DNA from: Bremia lactucae
Lineage: Eukaryota > Oomycota > Peronosporomycetes > Peronosporales > Peronosporaceae
Assembly: GCF_004359215.1 (NCBI RefSeq)
Contig: NW_027152029.1
Coordinates: 330,618-394,617, forward strand
Length of the DNA: 64,000 bases
Reading direction: 5' to 3'
In this document: positions 5,247 through 48,213 of the stretch, in pieces
How positions within the stretch are numbered: the stretch's first letter is position 1
How the letters are laid out: each line of letters opens with the position of its first letter
Translations under genes and position numbers: made by a program
The notes under the pieces: generated by a model
Databases searched by the model: none
Told to the model about the DNA's origin: nothing
The model's input: only the letters and a program-made list of their open reading frames with translations

Positions 5247-5249
5247 CGG

Positions 5250-20980: not shown

Positions 20981-21037
20981 AGGTTCACCATATCGAACGG
21001 TTGAAAACCGTTCAAAGAGTGCGTTCTCAATGACGGA

Positions 21038-21175: not shown

Positions 21176-21219
21176 TCTTAAAAGAGATGGTCGGATCTGT
21201 CCTCGTAAGTAACCGCGTA

Positions 21220-26963: not shown

Positions 26964-28821
26964 AGTCTATAAGTCTTCCTCGGACTTAAGGAGCGATGTA
27001 GCTCCGCCTCAGATACGATAAATGAGATAAGAATCTAGGTAATTATTGAGCGCAAGGAACCTTTAACGGCCTTTGGTCAATCCACAATTTAAAGAACGAA
27101 TAAAGGAAAGGCTTGCAATGCAGTAAGATGGATATTTATACCTTTGCTGATTTTTTGCATTCTTCACCTTAATAGTTCGATACCCACGCTAATTGTGGTC
27201 AACATTGCCTAGTTATATACTCAACTTCTGATGTGTCTCGCTCAGTGCTATTCTTTAATTTGTATTTGGCGGGCGACCACGAGTTTTAAATGACAGGAGG
27301 AGCTTCACGAATTTGCTTTGCCAATTCAAAACTTGTGTTTCTTTGCAATAACTTTAATTTTCTGCTATTGGCAATTAGGACAAGCGTTCGGTTATGACGT
27401 CCGTTACATTTCGAAATCATTCTTAAATCCTAGCCCGACTTCCGGCAATGCCTTTCAAAGAAGACGCCGTTGTTCTAAAGAATAAGGCAGATAGCATGCC
27501 AATTTTATTCAGACATGCGCGTTGATATTGCCGCAGGCGCTTTGACACGAAGTTATGGACCCCATACTTACCACAAGATGAGCTTAACTAAAATTATGGT
27601 GTGTCCCATTACAATTTGCAGTATTCTGAAACGAATATTGCGATCACTCCACGTAAAGCGTGCTCGCCTCCAGTGCCACAAAGCTTATCTACGATCAGTA
27701 CGAACGCCTAACCTCACTAACGGCAAAGCCTCGGCACACCTACAAGTGTCTTTGAGAAAATCGTGTCGAGTTTAGCAGCTGCAAGGCCCACAAAATACTG
27801 TAAGGAATCATTTGGAACCAATTTTATGTCAAAAGAAGCGTGTGCGATGCTTTTGCCACTTAAACTACTTCAAACACAGCGTGATGTATGCTCACGTCGA
27901 TATACCATCAACAACAACTGTCATTATGTTCTTCGGGTTGGCTCCACGCATTGCAGACCGACTTGTATTGCAGCGGTCGTCCCGCTTTCGTCTTCTTGCC
28001 GCGACTTCTGGTTCGTCCAGAAAGTATACTTTGTGGTCCAGTGAATCAAAAGAATTAAGTTGAATTGTATATGTTTTTGCCGAGGATTAAACTATGCATG
28101 TCTGGCATTTGTGGCAGCGTACCACGCATTCCTAAAGCTTCTAGAACTTGTCTCCTAGAACTTACACCAGTTTGATCTCTATCCTAAGGAATAGTGACAG
28201 AGATGGGGACAGAAATCTATGGACGGGTCCACACTCATCTACAAATATTTACTGCGACGAGATAGTGAGCCAAGTCTTTTAGCACAGCATTTTCAACATA
28301 CCATTGTGATTCTTGTCCGAAAAATAAAAGTCGATGCCTAACACTTTTTTAAATTGCATAAGCTCTTGCAATAAATGGGTCTCCCTCTTTGATGCTGCGA
28401 AAGTCAATTGATTCATTTTCATACATATGAAGCTAGTAATTTTCACTCAAACATGCTGCATGCCAACACGTCCTACTCGCCAAATCTTGCCACCTTCACT
28501 TGACGAAGACTGACTAGCTTGATCATGGCCGTCGCTTTGAGGGCTCATAACAAATCTTTTAGGGGCTTAGCCGCCTACTACAAATTATAAGGCCCTTGAC
28601 AAAAGCATTCCTTTTTTTAGGGAAAGAGTCGTGTTAAGTAGCTTAACCAAGCTCCTGATAAGAGAACTATTTTGGTCCTGAAATCTTAGGAAGAAAAAAA
28701 AAGAGCAACCCTTCTGTTTTATTAAGGATACATAGCCAATCCATGACAGGTGCGGTATGCTCGCTTAGGGTTCCGAGTAAAATCATTGCTTTATGTGCTC
28801 AGGTTGTAATCCAGAACAAAA
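26964..28821. other. Unassigned region
   Basis: Non-LTR DNA with several short overlapping plus-strand frames (27515-27775, 27763-28044, 27812-28063) that show no family I recognise. They could be remnants of a decayed gene. The sequence after 26964 continues the DNA interrupted by E1. No RNA gene seen. Confidence 0.35.
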
Positions 28822-29203
28822 ATGAGAGTCGTGCAGTTCCTGAGAAATAGTACAGTGCAGCTCTTTCTGATCGCTATTAATTATGTCTTGGCGCTGGTGG
28901 TGCATTAGTACTTATGTTCGTAGGGTTGATGTCATAGGGGGCTATTGGTCAATGTTTGACGATGCGGTGACGGCGCTTATTGTAGTTGGAGCCGTAATCA
29001 TCGGTCTAGCAGGACTTAGCTCCCTGGTGGCAGTTTGTCGATGGAGATTTGGTCTCTGTGCTTACGCGATCGTGATGCTGCTATTCCTTATCGTATTCGT
29101 AATTATGGCCACAGCAGTCTTCATTCTTTGGCCCAAATCTGACGACTGGAATGACACGACATATCCGGCTGAAAACACCGAGAAGACTGTAAAAAATAAC
29201 TTT
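28822..29203 (+). pseudogene. Tetraspanin-like gene, frameshifted and cut by E3
   Basis: From the ATG at 28822 the frame reads MRVVQFLRNSTVQLFLIAIN followed by YVLALVVH and a stop, a first membrane segment. A shifted frame (ATG 28883) gives GGYWSMFDDAVTALIVVGAV, IIGLAGLSSLVAVCRWRFGL, CAYAIVMLLFLIVFVIMATA and VFILW, i.e. two further membrane helices with spacing and a Gly/Cys pattern like tetraspanin TM2-TM3. The large extracellular loop should follow, but after NTEKTVKNNF the family A LTR begins at 29204. At least one frameshift near 28910 and the insertion inactivate it. Tetraspanin is the best guess; another small multi-helix membrane protein is possible. Confidence 0.6.
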
Positions 29204-29675
29204 TGTAACGGGGTTTATCGTTACATGCAATTAACACTTAAAGGTTGTTAATTAATATATTATCTAAAAGGTAGATAATATTTGGAGAATATTACTTTAT
29301 AAAGTAATGTTCAGAAATCTTATCCATAAATAGGTTTAGGCCATGTAAACGTAAACAGAGAGAGAGAGAGATAAGATTTTAATTGCATGTTTAGTTTTAG
29401 TTTATAACTAAGTTAGCATTTAACAGATAGAAAGAAGAGAACTTAATTATATTAATACAGTTTTTCATTTAACCCTCTTTAGGTGGGTTAAATGAAAAAC
29501 TGTATTAATATAATTAAGTTCTCTTCTTTCTATCTGTTAAATGGTAGTTGTCTTAAAGAGAAGTCTTCCTCTGCACGTACTAGTGTACGTGAAGTGACGT
29601 AATGCACCACTCGCAACTGAAGCAGTGCGAAGTGGACTTGTACTGAAGCAGTACAAGTCGTAGTGCCTCGTTACA
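29204..29675 (+). repeat. E3 5' LTR with internal hairpin
   Basis: Starts TGTAACGGGGTTTATCG and ends GTGCCTCGTTACA (one mismatch to the usual CCCCGTTACA). It is 472 bp overall because a 59-bp arm is duplicated in inverted orientation (29485-29543), while it lacks some DNA around 29345 found in the other copies. Confidence 0.85.
29417..29543. repeat. 59-bp perfect inverted repeat (9-nt loop)
   Basis: Arms 29417-29475 and 29485-29543 are exact reverse complements by eye, separated by nine bases. The left arm is normal LTR sequence; the right arm is an extra inverted copy found only here. A transcript would fold into a long hairpin. Confidence 0.9.
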
Positions 29676-29725
29676 CCTGGTAGCCCTTTTTAGTCCGTCC
29701 AAGGACTCCAGTTCCTTTATCTAAC

Positions 29726-30867
29726 ATGGACATGTTAGATGATAGTGGGAATACGCATCACGTTTCGCGTGAAAGTTACTCCTTTCTAAGTGATATAGAA
29801 AGGAGTGCGGTCGAACGAATGAGTTCTACCGTAGGGAACGATGCAATTTTGGCAATGCTGTCCAATTTGGACAGAGATGCCCTCCATTCCGCTATTGCCA
29901 AGTTCATAGAACATGAACTTGACGAGTTGAAGGAAAAAGTTGCCTTGCTGAATCAGCAAGGCTTTAACAGGCGGAACTGTTGAGGTTACAACAGGTACAG
30001 ACCCCTGTACCTGGGATGACGCACACGCGTCTTCCGGAAACCTTAAGGATAGATATCGGTAAGTATAGGGGAGTCGAAGAAGACCCTCTCTTGAGATGGT
30101 TTGTCGAGTTAGACGATACCATAAGAGCTCGTCACATCGTCGAAGAGCAAATGCAAGTCGCATTTGCTCAATAAAATTAGGCAGGTCGTGCCAAAACTGT
30201 GGCACTAGGCCTTAAGTTGCGCGAACCACACGTCTTTGGTTCGATAGAGGCTTTTAAAGCCCGTCTCAAACAGACGTTTGAATCACCAAGGGTTGAGTTC
30301 AGAAGTCGTTCAGAGCTTCTAAAGCTCAAGCAAAGCAAGCGTGATGTTCACGCATTTGCCCAGCACATACGACTCTTAGCGAGTTGTATAACAAATAACC
30401 CAGCTTATGAACACACGTTGATTACGGTTTTCAAACAAGGTCTTACGGATGGTCCCGTAAAGACCCACCTGTTCCGCAAGGAAGTGGATACACTTGAAGA
30501 AGCAATATCAGTTGCGGAACAAGAGGACTTAAGCTTGAGACAGGCTCAAGCTAGTTCGTCATCACATCGTCCACCAAGACGACACGAGTTAGGAGGTCCA
30601 GAACCCATGGACCTTTCCTACGTCGAAAGCGAGAGACCTCGCTTTCCGAACAATAAGCGATCGCAGAAATGCCATCGCTGCCAAAAATTGGGACATTACG
30701 CTCATGAGTGTAGTGCCCCACGTCCAGCACCAAAAGGTACTGAACGTAATTTTGGACCGTATGCCAAAAAGGGCAACGGTCGCGGATCCGACGTTGTTGC
30801 GAAATCGCAACAACGAGGCGGACCGCAAAAAATAGACGGGATCAGTAGGGGTGTAACGCCCTTTTGA
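29726..30867 (+). pseudogene. Gag with zinc knuckle, E3
   Basis: MDMLDDSGNTHHVSRESYSF starts at 29726. The N-terminal helical part is frameshifted near 29965 and stopped near 30172. The capsid-like domain follows at 30199-30540 (RSELLKLKQSKRDVHAFAQH, ITVFKQGLTDGPVKTHLFRK), then PMDLSYVESERPRF and the knuckle CHRCQKLGHYAHEC at about 30670-30711, ending at 30867. Confidence 0.85.
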
Positions 30868-30982
30868 TCCAGCAACCTCAAGAAAATTTGCAAATCTCTT
30901 AACTAAAATTGCTCCAGACACACAATCATTATGTGTCTCTGTACCTGGTGGTGAGCTATCCCTCATAACCTTGAAATTATAA

Positions 30983-31285
30983 GTGACAAATAATTTGTCA
31001 CTTACAGCCCTAGTGGACTGTGGAGCGTCGAATAACTTTGTTCGTCACCAGTCACTAGAAGGTCGTAGGCTCAAATATGTTGAGCGCGACATCCCTCCGA
31101 CGAGGATGACGGTGCGTCTAGCGACAGGCGCATCGATAACAGTGATGAAACGCGTAGTGAAATTTCACTACACGTTTAAAGATTTACAGTATGATGATGA
31201 TTTCATCGTACTGGATTTGGATGACAAATTTGATGTCATCCTTAATTTACCATGGCTCAGAAACTACGAGCCATGTATAAATTAG
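30983..31285 (+). pseudogene. Retropepsin-like protease, E3
   Basis: ALVDCGASNNFVRHQSLEGR carries the active-site motif in the form D-C-G-A-S. It is followed by RMTVRLATGASITVMKRVVK and DDKFDVILNLPWLRNYEP. The residue after the catalytic Asp is Cys rather than Ser/Thr, as in the other family A copies. Open over 100 residues but detached from RT by stops. Confidence 0.75.
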
Positions 31286-32081
31286 CAGCATCAAGGCTTG
31301 AGGATGTTTGCCTCTCGTTCATCAGAGGGGCATTTGATGAACCTCTTTGAGCGTCCACAAGTGTGTTAAATATCGTACGAGAGAGTGCGATGGCCTCACT
31401 TGTAGTTCGGTCGTTTTCACGACTGCACAAGACCTCCGTTTGAAAACCATCACACTGTGGAGTTAGATACCGACGGCTGTGCACAAGCACATCCAGCGTC
31501 GAAATTCGACCACTCAAATAAGTTGAGTGGTACGAAACAAGGATGCTTGCTTCGAAAGCAACATTCAAGAACATTTGAAACCGCTGTCTATTAGAGACAA
31601 TGCGAAAATTCTAGATCGACTGGAGAGTCGATCCTAGAGTATCTCGCTGTGGTTGCACAACCACAGCAAGAGGCAGTGGGGGATATTTTCCAAATAGAAC
31701 TTGAGGGAATAGTCCCCAAGATTGTGCAAGAAAAAGACCCTAGAAACCTGCGGTCAAAGGATCGCAGGTTCCTTTGGAAGTAAGTTCCAAAGAGGAAACT
31801 GAGACATTAAATACCTAAGTAAACAGCGGATCAAGTGTAGGCGCTGATCTGATAGCGCCTTCGAAGATAACTTTGGAGATAACTCAAATGTCAACGCTAG
31901 AACCGAAACGGTTCTTGCGTGATATGCGTAGTGGCTAAGTCAAGCAGATCTGCATACTTGTTGCAGATGACAAATACGTGGCCGATATTTGGTCGGCAAT
32001 AGCATTTCCTGAGAACGAACGGGTTCTCAGCAGCTCATCGATGAACGGAAATGTCCTCGATGAGAAGGCTTGGATTGAACG

Positions 32082-33054
32082 TTGTACTCCCCAGCCTGGC
32101 AGTCTTCGAAGACAAATCCCTTATATAAAGATTTGATCGAATTGAAGGATGCATTTCCTGAATCCCTACCGTGCGAGTTGCCTAAGAATAAATGCACTCG
32201 ATACGAAATCGATATGATTCCAGGTCCGAATTACTGTGTCATGAACCAGTGGCCATTGCCTCGTGAACTAGTAAAAGCGATCGACGAATTCTTTGCCAAT
32301 CGCTTAGCAGCGGGCCATATGAGGGAGACGACCTCCCAACATAGCTCTCTGACCTTCTGTGCGCGTAAAGCAACAGGAGGATGGCGGATTGTGCATGCGT
32401 TTAATTTATTGAACGCTGCAACGGTACCGGCTCAAACGCCGATACCACGAAAAGACGTAATTATAGATGATATGTCAAAAAGTTCTATTTCGTCAATAAA
32501 TTGGATGGATGAATTCTATCAGATCCTTATGCGTGAACAAGATATCCCGTTCATCACAGTAAGAACACCAAGCGGAATGCTATGTGAGTGGCTAGTTATG
32601 TCACAGGGACTTAGTAATGCCCCTGCGACATTTAATAGATGTGTAACCAATCTGTTGAGATCGGTGCGGGATTTCGCACCATTTTAATGACGTCTTCGTT
32701 CATAGCAGAGCCATTACGGAAAGCCGGACGTTGGAATACGTCCGAAAGATTCTTGCACCGATGCGTAAGCATAAGTTTTACGCAAGTCTCAAGAAGTGTA
32801 TATTCGCCGCAAGTAAACACCACTTCTTGGGTGCATCGTGGGTACGCCATGATCCGAAAAAGATTAAGGCAATCACCGACTGGCCAATGCCAGTCGATGT
32901 AAAAGGACTTCGAAACTTCATCGGCTTAGCGGCGGAATTACAAAGGTATTCCCGCAATTATGCCGAAATGACAGTACATATATCTTCATTGTTGGAGAGA
33001 ATTTTAAGGTGGCCATGGAAGGCTGATTGTCAGCTTTTCTTTGAGGGTATCTAG
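32082..33054 (+). pseudogene. Reverse transcriptase, E3
   Basis: 32082-32687 covers the RT entry (YEIDMIPGPNYCVMNQWPLP), FCARKATGGWRIVHAFNLLN and MLCEWLVMSQGLSNAPATFN. At the catalytic box (about 32685) the reading is HFNDVF in place of YFDDVF and the frame is lost. The thumb resumes at 32731-33054. Catalytically dead. Confidence 0.8.
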
Positions 33055-33700
33055 CAAAGCTTGAGGCAATCGCCAATCCTGGCGATTGCTAACCAAAACA
33101 GACCATTTCAAATGGTCTGTGACGCCAGCGATTTTGCAATCGGCTGTGCGTTAATGCAATACGACACAGACGGCGCAGAGCGTCGTCTGTCATTTATCGC
33201 GTCAGTTGTAACCAGCTGAACAAAATTATCCAGTGCATAACAAGAACTCCTTGCCATTAAATATGTCGGCCGTAAACAGTCCACACCTCTTGCAAAGGAT
33301 GGCGAGATCGTTGTCTTTCTTCGCGGAGTACAACTTCTCCGTAGAATATAATTCACGACGACTTATCATCGTCGCTGATGCTCTTTCGCGCCGGACCCAT
33401 TTTTGAGCCGGCTTCGCAAAACAACAGTGAGGATAAGCCCACTGTTGCAACAATAAGTGTTCCATCACCAACATTACTTGACGACGTTAGAGGAGCTTAT
33501 CAAAAAGATAAAGCTCTTCAAGGGCTGATTGATTATCTTAGAAATCCATCCCAACAATCGTTGAAAGGATTGGCGAAATTGTACCGATCCTCAGCAGATC
33601 GATACACAACACGCAATGGTTTACTGTATGCACGGGCATTGCTAGCGACCCACCTCGTGTCGTCATCCCTACCCATAATGATTTGTTTGTACGCATAATG
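33055..33700 (+). pseudogene. RNase H and pre-integrase spacer, E3
   Basis: Short broken pieces: VCDASDFAIGCALMQYDTDG near 33118-33175, ADALSRRTHF near 33378, and a spacer open at 33378-33698 (LYRSSADRYTTRNGLLYARA). The middle of RNase H is deleted relative to E2. Confidence 0.7.
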
Positions 33701-34420
33701 TATGGGCGTCACGATGCTCCAATAAATGAGCATCGTGAACGTGAGAAGACTTATCTCACGGTAAGTTGCGACTTCTATGGGCGCGCCAGTATGAGTTCGT
33801 CCGCAAGTCCATACGTGCTTGCGAAGTTTGTCAACGGGTGGAGCCCAGTGCTTCATCCCGTGCTCCGTTACAACCTCTGCCTGTTCCGGTGAGTGTTGGC
33901 AGTCCGTATCTATGGACTTCGTCTTCGGTTTTCCCGAAGACGATCACAAAACAGTGGAATCCTTGTTTTTGTAGACCGATTCAGCAAGATGGTACATCTT
34001 GCTGCAGTACTAGAGTCGATTACGGCTCCGGGTTGTGCCCGTGTATTTATCGACACGGTATTCAAACTCCATGGGCTAACACGTGAACGGGTCTCAGATC
34101 GAGGCCCCAGATTCACAGCGGAATTCTGGCAAACTGTGGTCAAATCCCTTGGAACACAGTTGAAAATGTCAACTTCTGACCATTTTGAAAATGATAATCC
34201 GACAGAACGTGCAAATTGTATCCTTGAAGAGTTAGTTCGAGAATACGTCCACTTTTTCGCAAGTTGGAGCGAGTTCTTGTCGATTGTGGAGTTTGCCATA
34301 AACAATTCAGTGCATGCTCCTAGAAGCATACATGGTTTTACGAAGCATACATGGTTTTACGAAGCATACATGGTTTTACGTGAATGGCTTACGTTATCCA
34401 CATTAACCCAGCCTGTTTAA
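33683..34420 (+). pseudogene. Integrase, E3
   Basis: CEVCQRVEPSASSRAPLQPL (zinc-binding end) at about 33815. The 33893-34420 frame then carries NSGILVFVDRFSKMVHLAAV, FIDTVFKLHGLTRERVSDRG and PTERANCILEELVREYVHFF (region of the catalytic Glu, usually [10 protein letters not shown]). A 19-nt triplication at 34323-34379 disrupts the end. Confidence 0.75.
34323..34379. repeat. 19-nt tandem repeat, three copies
   Basis: Unit GAAGCATACATGGTTTTAC repeated three times without mismatch at the end of the E3 integrase core. Confidence 0.9.
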
Positions 34421-34977
34421 AAGTGGCTTTATTTCAAGGGGGGGACTCGCTTGAGCAAAGTACCTTCTAGGTCTTGCTCATCACGCATTGACCGTAGGGT
34501 CAACGCGAATGATAACAATGTTGATTCAGTCAACATTGAAGTGGACAAACTCAGTAGTAACAAAAATGCTATTATTGACTTTGATAACGATGCCGAAATA
34601 CACCGCATCGATGACAATGATGTTAGTCAGAACAAAATGCTCTCACTAATGAGGAGAATGAAATCTTCGCAGTGCGCACCGGTCGCACTGACGATAAAAA
34701 AAACTGAGCCTGCAGGTGAATACCTGCTGGCTTTTCGTACAGGATTTCAACGCAGATGCGGTGGACTGACAGAAACGGAACTCTGACAAAAATGGAAGTG
34801 CAAACATTCTTCATTTAATGTCAACGACCTAGTCCTACTGTCTACGGTAAACCTACCAAAAAATGTAATGACGAATGTAGGCAGTAATAAAGCGCAGGTA
34901 TATCGGCCCGTTTCGTGTACTACATCGCCAAGGCAATGCTTACACGATCGGGCTGCCTCGTAGTATGTGTACGCATC

Positions 34978-36301
34978 CTACGGTTTATGTTGGGCGCCTC
35001 CGCTTGTGCCATCAGAACGAGGCTTCTTCCGATTCCGGATTACACCGGAACGGCCAAGGGCATCCGCCAAAGCCTTTTTGTCTTGGCACCGAGTCTGATT
35101 ATCTTGAACCAGACGATCCACTCTTTCCTCCAAGGAAGATATCTTCTGACGAGCTGTCACCAGCTCGTTTGAAGGAACTGATGTGTCCTTTCATTCGCCA
35201 ATTGACCAGTCGCAATTTGCGTACAAATTTTTAATTGGTCACGATAAACATTATCGACCGTCATCGCAAACTCGAGGCGACGGGATCGCTCGTGATCAAT
35301 GACCTCCCGAAAATAATGGAGGGTGTGATCCAAATCACGATGTTGACTCGGGTTTGTAGAACGAGGCGAACCCGATTTTCCCTCCCCATCGACATTGACG
35401 GGTTCGAGTGGTGAAAAGCGTTTTCTTGTTGAACGCATCTCGAACCACGGTGAGGTGAGAGGAATTCGAGTTATACAAGCTGACCCGTTCGTTAACGAGG
35501 ATATCCACCCTCGCGTGATAGTTGGGAGCCTCGTTCCCAACTGATAATGGTCGTTCCGGGTCGTTCGACAGCACGACGAGACCCATCCTCCTCGACAGAG
35601 GGTCCAATCAGAAAACGAGCGCTTCGCGCGCTCATAAAAGGATTGGAGGTTCTCAATCCCTCCGTGCATCTCACAAGAGATAAGCGTCCTCTAATGAGGA
35701 TCCTTAAGGGAGTGTGCCTCTTTAGGGGCATGACCTGCACCATAAAAACAGCATTGACATGAATCCCTCCGCGAGAGTCAAGGAACCCTGACTCTTTAGA
35801 CAAGCGGTCCAGCTTGTAGCGTGCACCGACTACGGTCCGTTTTTATTAATCGTTCACGGAAAACACCCAGTTTGTCAAGCCAGACCTCGCGGCCGATGCG
35901 TTGCACATTCTGTACAAATCCTACCCAAGCTTGGAACAAAGGAGTGACATCCTTCGCCTGCTTACAAGTGTACCACCGATGCCGGAATAAGGCATCGATG
36001 CAGAATTCCGTTTCATCCTCACCAGGACGAGTGGATGAGTCGAACAACCGGATATTATATCGATCGTTGGTCATACCAGACTAACAAGTTAGGTTGCTCT
36101 AGAGGGCAACAAAGGCTTTTTTTCGGGAACAAACGGCAAAGTAGTGCGGTCCCTCTCCCAATGGTTCATGTTAACGTTAACGCCAACATTACTTTCGGAG
36201 CGATTCCTAAAATCACTTCGTCCCTGGTGACGCATACTAGCACCACCAGTAGTATGCTGATCGAAGCGGCCTTGACGATTGCTTCGTTCCTGGTGAGGCA
36301 T
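34978..36301 (-). pseudogene. Antisense ORF remnants of E3
   Basis: Minus-strand frames opposite to E3 pol. 36089-36301 is an Arg/Asn-rich start ending VPEKKPLLPSRAT (E2: APEKKPWLLPERLV). 35796-36074 reads CIDALFRHRWYTCKQAKDVT, LFQAWVGFVQNVQRIGREVW and LDKLGVFR, matching E2 AFIRNVKDIGREAWLQKL. 35157-35669 and 34978-35160 are charged, helix-rich frames (DHTLHYFREVIDHERSRRLE). The order agrees with the E2 antisense frame, so the protein was once shared, though diverged. No known domain. Confidence 0.5.
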
Positions 36302-36302
36302 T

Positions 36303-36825
36303 CTGACATTAACAGAGTAATAATCCTACTGATCCTGGTGTAGTAGTGGTACGCAACTCACTCTAGGACCGGCAGGTCGCGGGTTCGATATCCGGGGCCG
36401 ACAAATCCTCCAAAGTATAATGGTAGGTGGTCTTGTCCTGTGCACCAAAAAGGTGTATATGATTAGAAATTCAAAAATTAACTAATTATCAATTGAAGGG
36501 CAAGTCCGGTGTAACACACCGGAGTTATCATCCTGGTGACGCATGCTGACATCATCCGAGTTGTAAGTGACTGTGGAGTCATCATCAGATGACTCCCCAC
36601 CAAAGAGGTCCGACGTGTCGAACAACCACGTCATCACCTCTTTGGTTGTCACGTTAGAACCCTAAAGTTTAACGGACTATGCCCCGGGTGATCCGGTGGC
36701 CTTTTCAGTAGCCACTGAGTCGGGCGATGACGCCGACTTGGACCTTAAAATTATTATCATCTTATAATTTTAGCTTAATATTTCCAATATTACCAAATCA
36801 GGTAATATTGAAGCAAAAGACAACG
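36303..36825. other. Repeat debris
   Basis: No open frame of note. 36745-36822 resembles part of the A' LTR in plus orientation (the palindromic CAATATTACC motif recurs). A weak tRNA-like B box occurs at about 36382. Confidence 0.4.
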
Positions 36826-37331
36826 TGTAACGGGGCACTTTTCGCTAGTAATGATAACAGTACTAGCCAACCTACACTGATTACAGTGAAGGCGAGGTGC
36901 CTCGAAACTTTACGTACACGACGTAGAGAGGGACGTTTCTATAAAGCTAAGGGGATAGCTTGTAGGGTCTAGACTAAGGCTTTAGAATAGAGAAAATGTA
37001 AAAGTGTATTAATATATGAAGTTTGCTCGTTACGATCTTCTATCTATTACTGATTTTATTATATTAATAACTAATTATGGCGCCTACTTGCGCACCGCAC
37101 AATCATGCTCTGTGGCGATTGGCGGGGTTACTTTAAATTAAATTAATCTAATAATTAAACTAACGTCTTACTGCGTCAATAATACCAAATTTGGTAATAT
37201 TGGAACTATTAAGTCCAATAATTAATAAAGATAACTATTTGTACTTGTTTGATTACTTCCTTTCATAGAACCAAATATTAATTATTATTCTTTTAGGAAA
37301 CAATACTTATGTAACGGGACACCCCGTTACA
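36826..37331 (-). repeat. A' family LTR (506 bp)
   Basis: Plus-strand reading begins TGTAACGGGGCACTTTTCGC and ends GACACCCCGTTACA, so the LTR sense strand is minus. The right flank (TCACCCCCCTCTTAACC) is a polypurine tract on the minus strand, hence this is the 3' LTR of a minus-strand element. It shares termini, but little inner sequence, with family A. Confidence 0.7.
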
Positions 37332-37750
37332 TCACCCCCCTCTTAACCAGCAGTCACAATACTTATTATTGTGAAGTGACAGAGAAATTTTGTTATGCCT
37401 TTCCCTATAGTTTTTGTATTATTGTTTTTTTAATGATTTTTTTTAATTTTAACGCATTAGTGATTTTTTTCAAAAATCAATTCGTTTGCGCATGTCGACT
37501 AATTAGTCCGTGCGCGTAGCCGTGAGGCCGCTAAGCTGGCAGCTGCACGTATCCGTGCAGCTGCTATAATGCAAATGTTTCAGTAGACGCTAATGCGTCT
37601 ACTGTGGGGAATAAGTCACCTCCTTCTCCCATTGGAGATGACTACAATATGTCACCTGCTACGCCAATTGTAAATGGCCTTTTGGTTTAGCCCAACATCC
37701 TCCCCATCTGTATATAATAAAAACGTCATGTAATATATTTTCACTGTATG
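37332..37750. other. 3' internal remnant of an A' element
   Basis: Follows the A' 3' LTR. On the plus strand (antisense to that element) short stretches read REAAKLAAARIRAAAIMQMF and GDDYNMSPATPIVNG with stops between, resembling in composition the start of the antisense frames of families A and B. It is cut at 37750 by the E2 LTR. Confidence 0.4.
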
Positions 37751-38199
37751 TGTAACGAAGGGTATCGTTTATAGAAAATAACACTTGAAGGTTTTTAATT
37801 ATTATATTATCTAACAGGTAGATAATATTTGAAGGATATTTCTTTAAATAGTAATGTTTAGAAGTCTTATCCATAAATAGATATAGGTTATTATATCTAT
37901 TTATCCGCAGACTAATCAACTGTAGATGTAAACAAAAGAGAGACAGATAAGATAAGATAAGATCTCAATTGCATGGCTTAGTATTAGTTTATAATTAAGT
38001 TAGAGTTAACAGATAGAAAGAAGAGTTACTTATTTATATTAATCCAGTTCTCATTCTCATTCTCAAGCTAGTTGCCTTAAAGAGAAGTCTTCCTTTGCAC
38101 GTACTAGTGCACGTGAAATAACGTAAGGCACCACTCGCAACTGAAGCAGTGCGAAGTGGACTTGTACTGAAGCAGTACAAGTCGTAGTGCCCCGTTACA
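37751..38199 (+). repeat. E2 5' LTR
   Basis: 449 bp from TGTAACGAAGGGTATCG to CCCCGTTACA. Its middle resembles the E3 5' LTR and the solo LTR at 14619, unlike the E2 3' LTR. Confidence 0.85.
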
Positions 38200-38201
38200 C
38201 C

Positions 38202-38216
38202 TGGTAGCACTCTTTA
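38202..38216 (+). other. E2 primer-binding site
   Basis: TGGTAGCACTCTTTA two bases after the 5' LTR, at the same place and with the same first nine bases as in E1. Confidence 0.6.
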
Positions 38217-38249
38217 GTCGGTCCAAAGACCACATTTCCTTTATCTAAC

Positions 38250-39374
38250 ATGGACATGTTAGATGATAGTGGGAATACGCATCACGTTTCGCTTGAAAGC
38301 TACTCCTTTGTAAGTGACATAGAGAGGAGTGCGGTCGAACGAATGAGTTCGACCGTAGGATACGATGCCATCATGGCAATGCTGTCCAATTTGGACAGAG
38401 ATGCCCTCCATTCAGCCATCGCCAAGTTCATACAACATGAACTTGACGAGATGAAGTAGAAGGTAGCCTTGCTGAATCAACAAGGCTCTTAACAGGCAGA
38501 ACTGTTGAGGTTACAACAGGTACAGACCCCTGTACCTGGGATGACGCAAGCGCGTCGTTCCGAAACCTTAAAGATTGACATCTCTAAGTATTGGGGAGTC
38601 GAAGAAGACTCCCTCTTGAGATAGTTTGTCGAGTTGGACGATGCCATAAGGGCACGTCACATCACCGACGAGCAAATGCAAGTCGCATTTGCTCAATCAA
38701 ATTTGGCAGGTCGTGCCAAAACTTGGGCATTGGGCCTTAAGTTGCGCGACCCATATGTCTTTGGGTCGCTAGAGGTTTTTAAAACCCGACTCAAACAGAC
38801 GTTTGAGCCACCAAGGGCTGAGTTCAGAGCTCGTTCAGAGCTTCTGAAACTTAAGCAAGGCAAGCGTGATGTGCACGCATATGCCCAGCACATACGACTC
38901 TTAGCGAGTTGTATTACCAATAACCCAGTCCATGAACACACGTTGATTACGGTGTTCATGCAAGGTCTTACGGATGGTCCCGTAAAGACCCACCTGTTCC
39001 GCTTGGAACTGGATACGCTTGAAGAAGCAATATCCGTAGCGGAACAGGAGGACTTTAGCTTGAGACAGGCTCAAGCAAGTTCGTCATCATATCGTCCACC
39101 TAGACGACACGAACTAGGAGGTCCAGAACCCATGGACCTTTCCTATGTCGAAAGCGAGAAACCTCGCTTTTCGAATAATAAGCGATCGCAGAAATGCCAT
39201 CGCTGCCAAAAATTGGGACATTACGCTCATGAGTGTAGTGCCCCACGTCCAGCACCAAAAGGTACTGAACGTAATTTTGGATCGTATGCCAAAAAGGGCA
39301 ACGGTCGCGGATCCGACGTTGTTGCGAAATCGCAACAGCGAGGCGGACCGCCAAAAAATGGACGGGGTCAGTAG
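38250..39374 (+). pseudogene. Gag with zinc knuckle, E2
   Basis: MDMLDDSGNTHHVSLESYSF at 38250, an in-frame stop after ELDEMK at 38458, then a frame break. From 38634 a 246-residue open stretch holds the capsid-like domain (QSNLAGRAKTWALGLKLRDP, RSELLKLKQGKRDVHAYAQH, ITVFMQGLTDGPVKTHLFRL), PMDLSYVESEKPRF and the knuckle CHRCQKLGHYAHEC. This is the best-preserved gag in the window. Confidence 0.9.
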
Positions 39375-39424
39375 GGGCGCAACGCCCTACTGATCCAGCA
39401 ACCTCAAGAGAATTTGCAAATCTC

Positions 39425-39953
39425 TTGACAAAAGTTGCTCCAGACACACAATCATTATGTGTCTCTGCACCTGGTGATGAGGTATCCCTCATCACCTTGA
39501 AGTTGAAAGTGACAAATGATTTGTCACTCAGAGCCCTAGTGGACTGCGGAGCGTCGAATAACTTTATTCGTCGCCAGTCACTAGAGGGTCGTAGGCTCAA
39601 ATATATTGAGCGCGACATCCCTCCAACGAAGATGGTGCGTCTAGCGACAGGCGCATCGATAACAGTAATGAAACGCGTAGTGAAATTTTACAACTCGTTT
39701 CAAGATTCACAGTACGATGATGAATTTCATCGTACTGGATTTAGATGACAAATTTGATGTCATTCTAGATTTGCCTTGGTTCAGAAAATATGAGCCAAGA
39801 ATCAGCTGGCAGCATCGATCCGTAAAAATGCCTGCTACTTGTTCATCAGATAACCATCTGATGAACGTCTTGGAGCGCCGACTAGCGTGTGGATGTACTG
39901 CGAGTGAGTGCGATGGCCTCACTTGTGGTACGGTGGTTAGCACGACTGCATAA
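39425..39953 (+). pseudogene. Retropepsin-like protease and linker, E2
   Basis: ALVDCGASNNFIRRQSLEGR (active site D-C-G-A-S), LATGASITVMKRVVKFYNSF, a one-base frame change near 39717, then DDKFDVILDLPWFRKYEPRI and the Cys-rich linker CGCTASECDGLTCGTVVSTT. Essentially complete apart from the frame change. Confidence 0.8.
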
Positions 39954-40612
39954 GATCACAGTGTGATTACTAATCACACTGTGGAGTCAGCTGCCGGCGG
40001 CTGTCGCGAATGCACAGGCAGCGCCGAAGGTCCACCACTCGAATAAGTCGAGTGAATTGAGACATGAATGTACGCCTAGCGAGCGACATTCAAGGAAGAT
40101 ACCGGTTACCCAAAATGGACAACACGATGATCCTAAGTTTGGTAGAGAGTCGACCGTATAGGACCCGACTGTGATAGCGCAATCACATTCGGAAGACGTT
40201 GAGGGAATAATTCCCCGCGTACTTGAGGAGGAATCTCCTCAAATAGTTAATGCTAAAGTGACTAGACTTCAACTTCCCGAGGGATTAATCCCTCGGCAGC
40301 CTGTATAAAAGAGGTCCCAGGAAGAAACTGAGACATTGAATGTCTTGGTTAAAGACGGGTCAGGAGTAGGCGCTCGTACTCTTGAACTGTATGCGCCTCC
40401 GAAGTTAACCTCGGAGATAACTCAATACCAACCCTAGAACCTATGTTGTTCTTGAGAGATCTGCATAGTGGTAAATTCAAGCAGATCTGCGTACTCGTCA
40501 GAGTAGACAAATACGTAAACGATATTCGGTCAGCGCCAATTTTTTGTAGAGAACGAACGGGTTCTCAGCAGCTCATCGATGGACGAAATTGTCCTCGATG
40601 TGAAGACTCGGA

Positions 40613-41486
40613 TTGACAGAAATACTACTCAATCCTGGGAGTCACTTAAAGACAAATCCTTTATACAAGGATTTAATTAAATTCAGGGATGTATTCCCTG
40701 AAACAGTTTCATGCGAGTTGCCTACAGATAAACGCACTCGACATGAGATCGAGCTCAAACCGGGCTCGAAGTACTGTGTCATGAAGCAGTGGACACTGCC
40801 TCGTGAACAAGTACTTGCGATCGTATAAATTCTTGATCGATCGACTAAAAGCGGGCCATGTAAGGAAGTCAACTTTTTTTTTCTCTAAATAGCTCTCCAA
40901 CCTTCTGTGTGCGAAAGGCCACAGGAGGGTGGCGGATAGTGCACATATTCAATAAACTGAATGCTGCAATGGTACCGGCTCAATCGCCGATACCTAGAAA
41001 AGACGTAATCATAGGTGGTGTGTCTAAGAGTACGACGTACAGGTCGGTTTCTAAGTAGCTAAGGGTAAATCCTTAGGCGTGAACGGGACATCCCGTGCAC
41101 AGCAGTGAGCACTCCCAGTGGGATGCTCTGGGAATGGCTAGTGATGCCCCAGGGGCTTGGTAACGCCCCTGCAACATTCAACAGATGCGTAACAAATCTA
41201 TGAAGACCGGTGCGAGAATTCGCACCGAGTTATTTCGACGATGTATTCATCCATAGCCGGGCCACGGACGGTAAGACGGACGTGAAAGTTCATGAAACTC
41301 TCGTTCGTCAGGTTCTTGCACTTATGCGAAAGCACAAGTTGTACGCAAATCTCAAGAAGTGAATATTCTCTGCAAGCGAAATACCTTATATTGGGTGCAT
41401 CGTCGGTAATCACGGCGTGCGCCCTGATCCCGAATAGATCAAGGAAATTACCAACTGGCCAGTTCCAGCGATGTCGGGGGACTTAG
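40613..41486 (+). pseudogene. Reverse transcriptase, E2
   Basis: RT entry motif HEIELKPGSKYCVMKQWTLP near 40735-40800, a gap of broken frames around 40830-41060, then [20 protein letters not shown] and SYFDDVFIHSR at about 41228-41262 in another frame. The YFDD catalytic box is intact at the base level. The thumb is disrupted up to 41580. Confidence 0.75.
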
Positions 41487-41633
41487 AAAGTTCCTTGGGC
41501 TTGCGGCGTACATGCACTAGTACTCAGGCAATTATGCCAAGATTACAGCTCATCTTTCTCGTCTTCTGAAAAAGACGAGAAATGGTTATGGAACGCTGAT
41601 TGTCAGCGTTCCTTTGAGGGCATCAAGCAAAGC

Positions 41634-42060
41634 TTGACGCAATCACCTATCTTGACGATTGCAGATCAAGACAGACCATTCCATGTGGTCTGTAACGCCA
41701 GCGTTTTCGCAATCGGCTGTGCGTTAATGAAATACAATCCGGACGGTGCGGAGCGTATCGTCTGTTACCAATCGCGTCAGCTGCAACCAGCTGAACGCAA
41801 TTACCCAGTGCATGACAAGGAACTCCTTTCCATGAAACATGCACTGGCTAAATTTAGGGTCTATCTCCTCGGAGATAGACCGTTCATCGTATATACGGAC
41901 CATGCGTCATTGCGCACGGCCGTAAACAGCCCACACCTCTCGCAAAGAATGGTACGGTGGCTAACCTTCTTCGCGGAGTATAATTCCCAGTGGAATATAA
42001 CCCAGGACGACTAATTGTCGTCGCGGATGCATTGTCACGCCGACTCGAATTTGATCCGGC
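41634..42060 (+). pseudogene. RNase H, E2
   Basis: RPFHVVCNASVFAIGCALMK (Asn in place of the catalytic Asp), NYPVHDKELLSMKHALAKFR, FIVYTDHASLRTAVNS and QRMVRWLTFFAEYNSQWNIT. A frame break follows at about 41990, before VVADALSRR. Confidence 0.8.
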
Positions 42061-42331
42061 TGCGCACTTCAACAGTGAAAATATTCCAACTGTTGCAACA
42101 CTAATTTCAAGTGTTCCGTCGTCAACTTTATTGCTGACATAAAGAAAGCCTCCACAGAAGATAGAGACCTTCCGCGATTAATGAATCATCTAAAAAATTC
42201 ATCAAATAAATCTTTTATATAATTATTGGCTTTCTATTGATCGCCATCAGATCGATACACAACGCGCAACGGCTTATTGTACTACAGAACCGTTGCCGGC
42301 GACCCTCCACGTGTCATAGTCCCAACTCACA

Positions 42332-43009
42332 ATGATTTGCGCTTGCGCATCATGTATTAGTGCCACGATGCACCAACAAGTGAGCATCGTGGACCTGAGA
42401 AAATTTATCTCACAGTACTCGAAACTTTACTGGCCCCGCCTGTATCAGTTCGTGCGCAAGCACATTCGTACTTGCGAGGTGTGTCAGCGAGTGAAGCCTA
42501 GCCCTTCATCCCGTGCACCTCTCCAACCTCTACCACTTCCAGGAGAATGTTAACAGTCCGTATCTATGGACATCGTCTTCGGATTTCCCGAAGATGATCA
42601 CAAACAATGGAATTCTTGTTATTGTAGACAGATTCAACAAGATAGTACATCTTGCTGCAGTACCAGAGTCAATAATGGCTCCGGGCTGTGACCGTGTCTT
42701 TATCGACACGGTATTCAGACTCCACGTTTGCGCCGTGAACTGGTCTCCGATAAAGACCTACGGTTCACGGCGAAGTTTTGACAATCCGTCTTCTGATCTC
42801 TCGGAGCACGGCTGATGTCAACTTCTGATCATCCGGAGACAGATGGCCAGACGGAACGCGTCAATCGCGTCCTCGAAGAGAATCTTCGAGGTTACGTCCA
42901 ATCGTATCCGAAATGGAGCGAGTTTTTACCGATGGTCGAAATCGCCATCACAATTCGGCGCATGCTTCTACAACGCATACCAACCCATTTAAGGGATCCT
43001 CTAGTTTAA
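42332..43009 (+). pseudogene. Integrase, E2
   Basis: The zinc-binding end (FVRKHIRTCEVCQRVKPSPS) is at 42332-42553. Core pieces follow in shifted frames (VDRFNKIVHLAAVPESIMAP), and [20 protein letters not shown] at 42815 carries the region of the catalytic Glu. Two or more frameshifts separate them. Confidence 0.8.
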
Positions 43010-43246
43010 GGGGGGGTGGAATCGCCCGAGCAAAGCCAGTTTTGGATCACGCTCATCACGCATCGAAAATACCGACGACGCGAATGATGTCGATGTCCAA
43101 GCAATCGACATCTATAAAGAGAAACTCAGCAATAGTGATGACACTTTTGATCCCAACAAAATAAATAGCACCAGCGAGGAATTTCGCTAATGAAGAGAAA
43201 GATGCCATGACAGTGCGCACAAAGCGCACTGAAAAAGACAAAACAA

Positions 43247-44191
43247 ATGAGTCAGCATAGATTTTTTTTGCAGGGTCGAGAAGCAGTAGTCTGTTTCGTA
43301 CAGAATTCCGTTGCTAACGCAGTGGACCGGCAGAAACGGAACGCAGACAAACATGGACGAGCAAATGTTCTTTCATTTAGAATTAAAAATCTAGTACTGA
43401 TGTCTACGGTGAATTTACCTAAGCATGTAGTCACTAATGTGGGTAGGAGAAAACTACTACCCAAGTTCATTGGGCGATTTCGTGTACTGCATCGCAGAGG
43501 CAATGCGTACACAATGGAATTGCCACGAAGGATGCGAACCCATTCTACGTTTTACGTTAGTCGGCTCCACCCCTATCATCAGTACGCGGTTTCTTCCGAG
43601 GACGGATCTGACCACTTCTTTCAAGAATCCCCGAAAGATTTTTGAAATCACGAACCGGACTCTAATGTTGAGTGTGGAGAATTTCATGCCGAATTCAAAT
43701 TTCCTCTAAATCGCGATGAGCAGACGACAGCTCGTCACGAAGAGCGTGATACTTCCGTTCGTACTCCAACATTGAGTGCGCACTTTTCGAACGGTCTTCC
43801 AACCGTTCGATACGGTAAGTCTGCACCGTCGATTCCAATGAGTGACGTTTACCGCGCTCGTGATCAAGACCCTCCTTCAATACATGGAGGAAGTGTTCGA
43901 GCTTGTCGATCTTCGACTCTAGATCCGACACATAGGTCGGAAATAATACTCCCTCCTTCACCAGAACCATTGGTGGATTCCCACGGTGGTCAACGTTTCC
44001 TTGTGGAACGCATCGTAAGCCACCGTGATGTGGAGGGGCAGCGAACGAGTTATCTTGTTCTCTGGCGCGTTATCCACGTTCGCATGACACTTGGGAGCCT
44101 CGGTCCCAGCTGGATGTTGACGTTAAGGGCCTCGTCCGTCAGTATGACGAGACCCATCCGATGGATCAGAAGGTCCATCGGATGGGTCTGA
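43247..44191 (+). pseudogene. Integrase C-terminal domain, linker and chromodomain, E2
   Basis: 43247-43645: DRQKRNADKHGRANVLSFRI, LLPKFIGRFRVLHRRGNAYT and RTHSTFYVSRLHPYHQYAVS. After a frame break a Ser/Arg/Pro linker runs from about 43690, then 43950-44090: PEPLVDSHGGQRFLVERIVS followed by HRDVEGQRTSYLVLWR, a chromodomain. The end (Y-P-P-S ... WE ... DETHPM) is read in another frame to 44160. The linker region is also open on the minus strand. Confidence 0.8.
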
Positions 44192-45281
44192 AAATACGCG
44201 CCCCTTGCGCTTGTAAATCGATTGCAAAACGTCAATCGCATCGCGCATCTCGATAGAGATGTGAGCCCTTGCCCATGGCGAAGAAAGGAAATAAACAACC
44301 CCTTCCACTCGTTTCGTGTTGTCGACACAACACGGACAGGGATCACCCCACGTGAGGCATGGAAGTCCTGCCCCACGAGACAACCGATGCAGTTTAAATC
44401 TTGCACCGGTTGAAGTACGTTTCCAAACTTAACGCGAATCGCGTTAAGCTTTTGAAGCCAGGCTTCGCGCCCAATGTCTTTGACATTGCGAATGAACGCG
44501 TTCCAGGATCGCATCAACTAGCTTTTATTTCGCTTGTTGTTGCCATTATTCCATCGATGCTTAAGAAAAACATCGAGATAAAAATCCTCCTCAACACGAT
44601 AGGTCTTCGCGCTGGGGTCAAGGCCATGTAGCTTTTTCGCATAAATAAGGGAGAGGAGTAGTCTCTCCTGACAAGCTACTGACTAGCCGTTCGGGCAAAA
44701 GCCACGGCTTCTTCTCAGGGGCAAGACAATACATTTTATTGTCTTCACTCCCCTGAGCGGTACCCACTGAAGCAGGTGTACCACAAGAACTTTTATTACG
44801 ATTGCTTACGCCATCGTCACCACCACGCACAGGGATAAGTGCGGCTGACGGCACGGAAGACGGTGCTGGCGATGAGGAATCATCCTCATCGTCGGAACCG
44901 AACATGCTATAGCGAATACTATTAGCACGTCTTTCTGATTGTGCCCCCTCATTCGAACTCATAGTCAGCCGGCTGACGACGATTAGGCGACTATTCTGCT
45001 CTGTCCGAGTCGGCCATTTCGTCCGATTCGCATTCGTAGTCGACCTCCAAAGAGGGACCGCATACACGTGGTGAAACACCACGTCAACCCGCAACGTTAA
45101 GTGTTGCGGGAGAAGATGATACTACGGCATACGAAATGTCTGCCGCAAGAGACAATAAGGCGTCGCCCGCGGCTGCATGTACCGCAGCCAAAGGTTCCGT
45201 ATTATTCGCTGACCGCATAGACTCGTTAACCATGCGATAGACTTGAAAATGATGGTTCTGACCAATCAACATCATTTTCAC
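43695..45281 (-). pseudogene. Antisense ORF of E2, longest copy
   Basis: Opposite to gag-pol, starting at ATG 45281 just inside the 3' LTR (MKMMLIGQNHHFQVYRM). Order on the minus strand: Ala-rich helix (AAVHAAAGDALLSLAADI), acidic/Ser segment (MFGSDDEDDSSSPAPSS), APEKKPWLLPERLVSSLSGE, then 44050-44517 with AFIRNVKDIGREAWLQKLNA and IGCLVGQDFHASRGVIPVRV, and finally a coiled-coil-like end at 43695-43970 (DLESKIDKLEHFLHVLKEGL, RIERLEDRSKSAHSMLEYER, KYHALRDELSSAHRDLEEI). At least three frameshifts break it. The first part matches E1 and the middle matches E3. Unknown family. The last part overlaps the sense linker and chromodomain and may be an open shadow; the first kilobase has no sense competitor. 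Confidence 0.55.
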
Positions 45282-45348
45282 TAAAGCGGTCCTATAGTGA
45301 CCACTCTATTCAATGACAGTCTGTGTGATTGTCGTTTAAAGGGGGGGG

Positions 45349-45787
45349 GTAATAGGGTGTATCGTTACATTATACTAACACTTAAAGATTGTTAATAAAT
45401 AGATAATTCAAAAGGTAGATAATGTTTTTGGAATATTACTTTACATAGTAATATTCGAAGAGCTCATCTATTGGTAGATATAGGCCTTTGTATCTACTTG
45501 CTCCGCGGTCCAGTCAGCACTGGACGCGCGCAAGGAGAGAGACAGACAAGACTTTATTACATGTCTTGTATGAATGTATAATTAAGCTAGTAGAAAATAG
45601 ATAGAAACAGAAGAACTTAATTATATTAAATATAGTTTGTTTTTAACCCTCTTTGAAGCAAGTGTTCACAGAGAGTCTTCCTCTGCACGTACTAGTGTAC
45701 ATGAATTGACGTGTGGCACCACTTGCACTGAAACAGTGCAAAGATGACCTGTACTGAAGCAGTACAAGTCGGCAGTGCCCAGTTACA
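45349..45787 (+). repeat. E2 3' LTR
   Basis: About 439 bp with a decayed start (GTAATAGGGTGTATCG) and end (GTGCCCAGTTACA). Its middle (GTCCAGTCAGCACTGGACGC) matches the solo LTR at 62987-63426 in reverse, not the E2 5' LTR. Confidence 0.8.
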
Positions 45788-46275
45788 CGGTACCCGTGTG
45801 TTCGAAGAGCTTGTACGGTAAGCAGGCGTGCTAACACGAGCAGACTTAAAGTCGACTCAGCGCATAGCGCTATGGCAACTGCCTCGTCGAAAGTAGCAGG
45901 ATGGGATCGGAATAATTCCGTCCGGGCAACGCCCTCATTAGTACCCTAATAAATCCTAGTCAAAGGGATTTATGGGCTCGTAGAACCAAGTGGCAACTAG
46001 TGCCCGAGAGTATAAACCTTAGAAAGGCTGCCGTCTATCACAGATCAATGCGCAAGCCTTAGGTGCTTTAAGATCAAAAGGGGAACTGTACTTTATTTAA
46101 TTATTTCTCTCGCGAGGTTTGAATGTTATATCCGCCAATCGAAGGGCCAGTAGGAAAGCGAGTGCCAAGTTGCATCACTGGTTGAAGTTTCCCGTCTCAT
46201 TATCAACCAATCTCGTGGTGCCAACCTACCATTTGAAAGTGTGGGCAATAGGAAACATTTCAAAAGAAAGCAACG
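45788..46275. other. Repeat remnant and upstream region of the SDE2-like gene
   Basis: 45950-46085 is an inverted partial copy of the repeat at 19360-19510. The last 180 bases before the ATG are unique and must hold the promoter of the SDE2-like gene; no element could be assigned with confidence. Confidence 0.4.
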
Positions 46276-48213
46276 ATGACATCGGCCGAGCTCCAGTTTC
46301 TCGTGCATTTTAATCAAACGCTGTGCGTCTCTTTGTCGCCGAATATAGCTACGGTCTCCAGCATTCTTGTATTAATCCAGCAATTTGAAGGTGTTCCTCA
46401 CTCTCTGCTCGATCTCTACGTGAACGGCCGTAAGCTGGACGTGTTTAGCCATGTCCCATCCTTCCCGACAATTATTCGTGCACGGCTACGCGGTGGTCTG
46501 CGAGGTGGCAAAGGTGGATTTGGTGCTATGCTTCGAAGTATGGGAAAGGCTTCAGGCGGTAGGACTACTACAAATTTTGGTGCGTGCCGAGACCTGCACG
46601 GCCGTCGCCTGCGCCACGTAAACCAAGAGGTAGCCATGCTTAAGTGGCACCAAGAAGCGGAAGATCGAAAAAAAAATGACAATAACGCATTTGAAGACCG
46701 AGAAGTGCTTGATGAAGAAACGCCTAGCGGTATTCCTGGCTGGTATTTGGCCACACCATCGTGGGCAGAAGGTATCAAGAAGTCGTACATGAAGAGACGC
46801 CGTAATACGGTATTGTGCAGAAGCTGGTTAAAGGCTAGAGAAGGGGGTTGCATACCTCCGTCTGGTGCGCCTCGATGGTGGGGCTGCCCGCGTGGACGAG
46901 ACTGCGACTTTGCTCATGGAGAGGAAGAACTGCGGGGCGGAAGTTTGACGGAGCTCAAGCGCGCGAAAAGCGAGACGGATCAGCAAGCCAAGCAAAACCA
47001 ATTGCAAGAATACGTTGACTTTGAACAAGAGATGCCAGAGGATGTGATGGATGCAATAATGAATGGATTGCGACGTCGAAAGAAGAAAACAGAGGTTCCG
47101 AGGATACAGCAGGAATTTCATGCATCCGTGTTAATACCGGATGCAAGTTCATACATTTGTGTGCGCTCTGTACGACACTCGGTTCCAGTAGTAAAAAAGT
47201 GGCTAAAATTGGTGGGATCAGAAGAGGGAGATGGAAGCGTGACTACAACATTTCAACACGGATTGTGCGAATTACGTGGTCGAGGTAATTTTGGCACGGC
47301 CGCGATGCGACACTGTTGTGCTTTGACTCAGGGAAAATGGTATTATGAAGTGCGTCTCGTGACTGCTGGAGTTGTGCAACTTGGCTGGGCAGACTCGACA
47401 CTGGAGGCAAATTCGGCCACGGGCGATGGTGTCGGTGATCATGAGCGGTCGTGGGCTTATGATGGGGCCCGAAGGGTTAAGTGGAATGGTGGCAAGGACG
47501 AGGAGTACGGTTCAGACGATTCATGGAGCAAAAACGATGTGATTGGTTGCTTGCTGGACCTTAATGAAGGCACGGTGGCGTTTACTCGGAACGGTGTTGA
47601 TCTTGGTGTGGCGTTTCGCAACGTTAAGCACATGTCCAGTGACCGAGGATTATTTCCTGCCATAAGCGTTGAGCAGACGGAAATTATGCTGATAAATATT
47701 GGCTCCCAACCTTTTGTGTACGAGGCTCGCGGCTTTGATCCTGTAATTGAGGCATTGGACGCTGAAGAATTGGGCGGATTTGATAATAATGCTTCCGTCA
47801 AGAGCTACGGTAGTTACATCAGCAATGACGAAGTGTCTTGCACTGTAGGCCTAGATACCACCAAAAAGCAGATCGAAGCGAGCGTATTAGAAAGTGTAAA
47901 GACGGACACCCCAAAGGGTCCTCAGACGGAGGCAACAACGACTACGCCGATCGACCTACTAAAGTTTAAGACCATCGCGTCACTTGAGGCCTTGGGCTTG
48001 GAGAAGCTGAAGGTGGAATTGAGTCGTCGTGGGTTGAAGTGTGGGTAAGTATGGGCTTATATTGAGGCTGATAGTATTATTGCTTACTAGTTCTGATTGT
48101 TGTTCAATAGCGGTAACTTGACGGAGCGTGCGGCACGGCTGCTGACCGTTCGAGGAAAAGCCTGGGACGAAATTGATGCCAAAATCAAAGCGAAGAAAAG
48201 ATTGTGGATGTAA
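46276..48213 (+). CDS. SDE2-like protein with CCCH finger and SPRY domain
   Basis: Predicted CDS join(46276..48044,48111..48213), 623 residues. The 66-nt intron (GTAAGT...CAATAG) restores [14 protein letters not shown]. Residues 1-83 form an Sde2 ubiquitin-like N-terminus ending in GGKGGFG (77-83), where the family is cleaved after [22 protein letters not shown] follows, typical of SDE2. A CCCH-like finger (C192, C204, C210, H214) comes next, then a SPRY domain at about 325-480 ([40 protein letters not shown]), then the SDE2 C-terminal SAP-like region ([40 protein letters not shown]). SDE2 proteins act in pre-mRNA splicing and genome maintenance in the nucleus. Convergent with the next gene. 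Confidence 0.9.

Follow-up and report, generated by a model that had tools for sequence, protein, structure and literature searches.

We analyzed a window of 64,000 nucleotides of Bremia lactucae DNA, whose coordinates are used throughout. It belongs to a 115.9 Mb, 220-contig assembly; the published assembly of this species is 115 Mb, of which 24 Mb are gaps (PMC6570648). The element studied here, E2, is a Ty3/gypsy element on the plus strand. It lies between a 5′ LTR (37750–38200) and a 3′ LTR (45349–45788), which are 72.6% identical to each other. A polypurine tract, identified by its sequence and assigned its role by position, adjoins the 3′ LTR (45337–45349, plus strand). Within pol, an RT/RNase H piece (41487–42014, plus strand) matched Pfam RT_RNaseH with an E-value of 8.3e-32, and a piece nearer the 3′ end (43646–44191, plus strand), opposite the antisense gene described below, gave a weak match to Pfam Chromo (E 0.0012; 19.2 bits, below the curated cut-off of 25.1). 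The pol gene stops at a TAG codon (44254–44256, plus strand). Pol pieces of other copies matched integrase H2C2, the integrase core and a Tf2-1-like SH3 domain. The carrier of the antisense gene is a Ty3/gypsy element of the chromovirus type.

The window holds five E2-like stretches; four include the 3′ end of pol and the fifth (2751–6275) stops short of it. One of them, E3, has the LTR at 37750–38200 in common with E2, for which it serves as the 5′ LTR while being the right-hand LTR of E3, in the order LTR-E3-LTR-E2-LTR (29204–45788). In several places elsewhere, copies of the right end of E3 also continue past this LTR, as in a tandem pair. The right part of E3 (within 31500–38200) is widespread at 100% identity despite its broken genes: 31500–35200 occurred in 11 places and 35100–36500 in 10, the window counted, and the stretch 27800–30200 had itself as its sole match at that identity. 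These identical right parts could reflect recent spread in trans or repeated filling of assembly gaps. Compared with E2, the DNA of E3 was about 80% identical over gag and most of pol and 68–74% identical near the pol end, and no blastn match was found across most of the antisense gene. This is the pattern of a mosaic element or of a fast-evolving 3′ module. Immediately to the right of E2, a host gene encodes SDE2 and SPRY domains (46252–48048).

Opposite gag-pol, and with the E2 3′ LTR just upstream of it, E2 carries a decayed copy of an antisense accessory gene (43545–45233, minus strand), delimited by tblastn and by a frame without shared stop columns. The tblastn query was P0001, a 559-amino-acid metagenome protein, which aligned to E2 in three pieces from 45218 to 43548 (minus strand). 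The E2 frame is broken, its longest pieces being 167 (44618–45121) and 155 (44050–44517) amino acids long. A preliminary description of this DNA had placed the frame from 45281 to about 44050, between the chromodomain and the 3′ LTR, in a region lacking any sense gene. That frame is real, but it is larger, running down to a stop codon at 43545–43547, and it is not confined to the proposed interval, since it overlaps the chromodomain-bearing 3′ end of pol. The lack of a sense gene holds for 44257–45233 (minus strand), between the pol stop, whose column in the alignment of copies maps to 44254–44256, and the 3′ LTR at 45349. This part, hereafter the unique part, codes for an acidic N-terminus and most of a helical Cys/His domain. 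It does not hold for 43548–44256 (minus strand), which codes for a linker, a coiled coil and a basic tail and has the 3′ end of pol as its sense strand.

Two candidate starts are present in E2, ATG 45275 (MMLIGQ) and ATG 45233 (MVNES). The M-x-LIGQ stretch, formerly taken as the start, does exist, but it is probably upstream of the real start, since several copies have a stop codon after MLIGQNHHF and the related proteins begin with MVNKSMR, MTKSMR or MR. Judging from these sequences, ATG 45233 appears the more likely start of the two, and the upstream ATG with its MLIGQ stretch (45258–45275, minus strand) would either open a short ORF of its own or extend the N-terminus. An imperfect palindrome, GTGGTC-N7-GACCAC (45286–45304), separates the antisense start from the polypurine tract; it is conserved among copies and pairs fully in 26 of 44 of them. 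Its total pairing was 243 and the mean for shuffled arms 242.9, hence no covariation, and it was rejected as a paired element. An initiator-like motif in the leader was also rejected, as it is a loose match at one column, in 34 of 52 copies, to a consensus too loose to carry weight.

Antisense frames with shared landmarks had been reported in E1, E2 and E3. They are indeed present, and the P0001 search added a fourth element, E4. The relative in E1, an element on the minus strand, lies at 20153–21254 (plus strand). The E1 frame had been described as open; it lacks P0001 residues 136–351, and the remainder, residues 1–135 and 352–559, is spread across three frames. E3 carries a distant, decayed relative (34978–36134, minus strand), with the layout and basic tail seen in E2, to which P0001 aligned at 36044–34984 (minus strand) with about 28–36% amino acid identity. 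The same position and tail at such identity indicated that the layout is conserved. In E4 (61211–61822, plus strand), solely the part opposite pol is found, corresponding to P0001 residues 355–559. The part outside pol is thus kept in three of the four E2-like elements of the window that have a pol 3′ end.

We then looked at further copies, retrieved through their resemblance to the ORF and representing a subset of the family (40 of 3,016, 94 of 9,335 and 77 of 7,926 first-look candidates were scored). With the copy L063 as reference, 53 rows were projected; removal of one duplicate left 52, among them E1 to E3 of the window. A shared stop column was defined as one with a stop codon in at least 30% of the copies having letters there. 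Run in this way, without a consensus, the check for shared in-frame stops found none in the antisense frame over 555 codons (L063 columns 277 to 1941; 52 copies). This stretch is flanked by stop columns at 268 (33 of 46 copies; L063 is one base short right there) and at 1942, the terminal stop (39 of 41). Each of the other five frames had at least 12 shared stop columns. The sense pol frame had none between column 2390 and its own stop, at column 1241, which is present in 39 of 50 copies and maps to the TAG of E2. It follows from this position that some 964 nt belong to the antisense gene alone and some 700 nt are shared with pol on the other strand. Per 100 codons of the unique part, the antisense frame had 0.82 stops and the other five frames 2.4–9.8; in the overlap, the values were 0.69 and 1.03 in the two gene frames and 2.2–7.3 in the others.

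The selection test used 49 of the 52 copies (E3 and two short rows were left out), together with a subset of 38 copies selected purely on DNA similarity. In the unique part, internal branches carried 134, 138 and 236 changes at antisense codon positions 1, 2 and 3, and terminal branches 878, 786 and 948 (internal versus terminal, p 5e-5). The relative N/S in the antisense frame was 0.52 on internal branches (z 7.5 by relocating changes) and 0.83 on terminal branches with the 49 copies, and 0.71 (z 3.5) and 0.81 (z 4.4), respectively, with the 38 DNA-selected copies; the two kinds of branches are therefore not cleanly separated, terminal ones being mildly constrained as well. Fetching copies by the ORF could have biased this result. 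Such a bias was rejected as the explanation, because the signal drops from z 7.5 to z 3.5 in the DNA-selected copies yet persists in the unique part. The mirror frame −2, which has its third positions in common with the antisense frame, also showed a low N/S (0.63, z 5.1; 0.76, z 2.8 with the DNA-selected copies), whereas the remaining four frames gave 1.19–1.39. Frame −2 had 10.7 stops per copy in the unique part, however, as compared with 2.5 in the antisense frame. These data indicate that antisense codons of the unique part are under purifying selection.

In the overlap, changes on internal branches were fewest (98) where position 1 of both genes coincides, the other two counts being 149 and 175. 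The N/S signal was weak there, with z 2.5 for the antisense gene and 0.8 for pol, and with 0.6 and 0.9 in the DNA-selected copies, for which it was not significant. The pol yardstick is itself weak, since the pol-only stretch, read in its own frame, gave an N/S of 0.80 with z 1.5; by that yardstick, the antisense gene, at 0.52 (0.71 DNA-selected), is conserved like retrotransposon proteins. The overlap is likely to be under double constraint, although N/S alone falls short of proof.

Relatives were sought among 5.8 billion proteins. The protein search gave 167 matches at E 0.01 among 3,556 candidates and a profile search 126 matches at E 0.001 among 7,997 scored, 120 being listed in either case. 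Relatives of 493–593 amino acids came from Peronospora matthiolae, P. effusa and metagenomes, and shorter models from Hyaloperonospora arabidopsidis. These three species were the named sources among the matches listed, the remainder being metagenome proteins; no Phytophthora, plant or fungus name appeared among the 120, in a search that reaches solely relatives sharing short words. Two P. matthiolae clusters at 90% identity held 1,335 and 524 sequences. A truncated H. arabidopsidis relative, P0172, bears the name "RxLR effector candidate protein" and is probably a retrotransposon gene that entered an effector list. The P. effusa protein P0155 has an internal tandem duplication within its acidic N-terminal part.

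The relatives also informed us on the pol overlap. Among 179 proteins, one, P0072, gave a match at E ≤0.01 past the usual stop, with 35 amino acids there that are 60% identical to the antisense translation of L063 pol (E 4.5e-10). When five tails were tried, that of P0072 matched over 70 amino acids across the stop (E 8.5e-21), that of P0009 reached ten residues beyond the stop (E 5.1e-10), and that of P0025 matched E2 in a shifted frame (E 5.6e-10); P0022 gave no match and the match of P0155 was confined to the gene. The tails of P0072, P0009 and P0025 indicated that P. matthiolae DNA past the gene is antisense pol, so that the two genes overlap in that species too. The conserved, protein-coding antisense ORF proposed near the 3′ LTR is thus supported by stop columns, by the N/S values on internal branches and by protein relatives in other genera, that is, by conservation beyond the DNA-level similarity of copies. 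It is practically certain that the frame codes for a protein of approximately 500–600 amino acids that selection has maintained in downy mildew elements; over its last ~230 codons, the frame uses the same DNA as the 3′ end of pol.

The antisense protein consists of an acidic N-terminus, a helical domain with an H-x9-C-x6-C-x2-C motif, a coiled coil and a basic tail. Mean identity among seven representatives was highest in the basic tail (0.57) and the central domain (0.55), followed by the linker (0.51), the N-terminal 165 residues (0.38), which are acidic and abound in S, P, A and G, and the coiled coil (0.33); between genera, the tail is 57% identical. To the eye, its sequence looks like a nuclear localization signal. 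The motif residues are near-invariant among aligned members (H282, 39 of 42; C292, 42 of 43; C299, 38 of 40; C302, 39 of 39) and may bind zinc. The AlphaFold model of P0157 showed a helical domain (pLDDT 78–97 for residues 11–130 and 63–66 for 131–160), with four successive helices at 48–124, and a long helix at 248–351. Of our two structure models, the first used 16 sequences (pLDDT 50) and the second, that of P0157 just described, 53 (pLDDT 77). Foldseek with the second gave no match at E ≤0.001 in PDB or BFVD, and a second look with VIA-align covered almost solely the coiled coil. The best E-value of a PDB sequence search was 0.16. Family libraries returned scattered coiled-coil matches, the best being Bap31/Bap29 at E 0.00025, and all matches shown with a curated cut-off fell under it. 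For Pfam, complete hit lists (E up to 1) covered nine proteins; for 53 members, 25 of the 46 families hit were shown. No DNA-binding domain was recognized by sequence or fold, nor could the protein be assigned to a fold or family.

Our preferred explanation is that an accessory gene opposite gag-pol encodes a nuclear, dimeric, nucleic-acid-binding regulator; taken as a whole, mechanism included, we give this statement an even chance. The promoter for antisense transcription would lie within the 3′ LTR or next to it. The basic tail may bring the protein into the nucleus, the coiled coil may pair it, and the helical Cys/His domain may bind nucleic acid or chromatin proteins, so that the protein could regulate either how the element is transcribed or what becomes of its cDNA. 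The regulatory role is modelled on HBZ of HTLV-1 and on suggestions made for the Grande and Retand antisense ORFs. E3 speaks against an LTR promoter, at least in that element, as about 1.4 kb separate the beginning of its recognizable antisense gene from the next LTR. A bolder and more doubtful version is that the gene, lying opposite and partly inside the integrase chromodomain, encodes a nuclear regulator that diverges fast and has not been described before, a switch like HBZ but with an independent origin, outside both retroviruses and plants. In that event, one stretch of DNA would make both a chromatin-targeting domain and the element's own antisense regulator.

Other functions were considered. 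The protein might be structural or act in replication, its helical domain and long coiled coil assembling particles or coating cDNA. Such an anatomy and the high copy number of the carriers would fit, but no capsid or zinc-knuckle family was among the Pfam hits listed, a structural protein from the antisense strand would be unusual, and the tail has the look of a nuclear localization signal; we consider this unlikely. It might instead be a derived DNA-binding domain, for instance the core-binding domain of a tyrosine recombinase, now serving integration or nuclear import. The UniProt name of the Hyaloperonospora protein P0005, "Core-binding (CB) domain-containing protein," and the four successive helices of the P0157 model point that way. 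Yet P0005 matched no recombinase family in Pfam, NCBIfam or PHROGs, no fold match was obtained (in a search dominated by the coiled coil) and there is no catalytic domain, which makes this origin distinctly improbable. It is slightly more improbable that the antisense RNA matters rather than the protein, by pairing with genomic RNA and feeding silencing. This has been proposed for antisense transcripts of other elements (PMC7264820), and such an RNA could act in addition, but selection bears on antisense-frame codons and the protein is conserved between genera. Lastly, there is next to no chance that the frame is a fortuitous one or a shadow of pol codon usage: although about 700 nt lie opposite pol and frame −2 of the unique part also has a low N/S, stop columns and stop densities rule out such an origin for the unique part, which has no sense gene opposite and several-fold fewer stops per copy than frame −2, and full-length relatives exist in other genera.

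In the preferred reading, that of an antisense-encoded regulator, the gene would matter in several respects. Gypsy elements make up 58.6% of B. lactucae contig sequence (PMC6570648), and an antisense regulator of their own, if they have one, would make it possible to test how their bursts are controlled. On the practical side, large clusters of these proteins are labelled "uncharacterized" in proteomes. The pol overlap is also a natural case of both DNA strands coding. Antisense accessory ORFs are already known as a kind; as far as our literature searches show, three things are new: their occurrence in an oomycete, the protein family and the long pol overlap. The literature covered, mostly outside subscription journals, contained no account of such an antisense ORF in oomycetes.

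The nearest known carriers are the Chronos elements, oomycete gypsy elements which, like ours, have a chromodomain at the pol 3′ end, and which have two RNase H domains (PMC5348765). No second RNase H was found between RNase H and integrase in the one copy scanned (L030), and the word "antisense" does not occur in the main text of that survey of oomycete retrotransposons. Beyond oomycetes, the likeness to plant antisense ORFs, Boty and HTLV-1 is one of layout and general anatomy alone. In plants, gypsy elements such as maize Grande (gene23), rice RIRE2, Silene Retand and PvRetro13 carry antisense ORFs between pol and the 3′ LTR, and the Grande protein is reported to be nuclear, with a promoter of its own for its transcription (PMC7264820, PMC11963269). 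Like these, the oomycete gene is antisense to gag-pol, near the 3′ LTR and kept across copies and species. The host group differs, and the oomycete gene overlaps about 700 nt of pol, an overlap not mentioned for plant antisense ORFs in the text consulted. Transposase_28 (PF04195; TRP28, Retand-type) was absent from the nine complete hit lists (E up to 1) and from the families listed for the 53 members (25 of 46). The antisense extra gene brtn belongs to Boty, a gypsy element of Botrytis cinerea (PMC7264820; Zhao et al. 2011, cited in PMC8365987), which, like the host here, is filamentous and infects plants; no fungal name was found among the 120 listed relatives of the oomycete protein. HBZ of HTLV-1 is a nuclear bZIP protein, expressed from a promoter in the 3′ LTR, that represses the 5′ LTR (PMC10186651). 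The oomycete protein has no bZIP match, neither in the nine complete lists nor among the families (25 of 46) listed for the 53 members, and its basic stretch comes after the coiled coil. What it has in common with HBZ is an antisense gene at the 3′ end, an acidic N-terminus, activating in HBZ, a C-terminal coiled coil and basic residues (PMC10186651). If our reading is correct, oomycetes would join retroviruses, plant elements and a fungal element in having 3′-end antisense genes.
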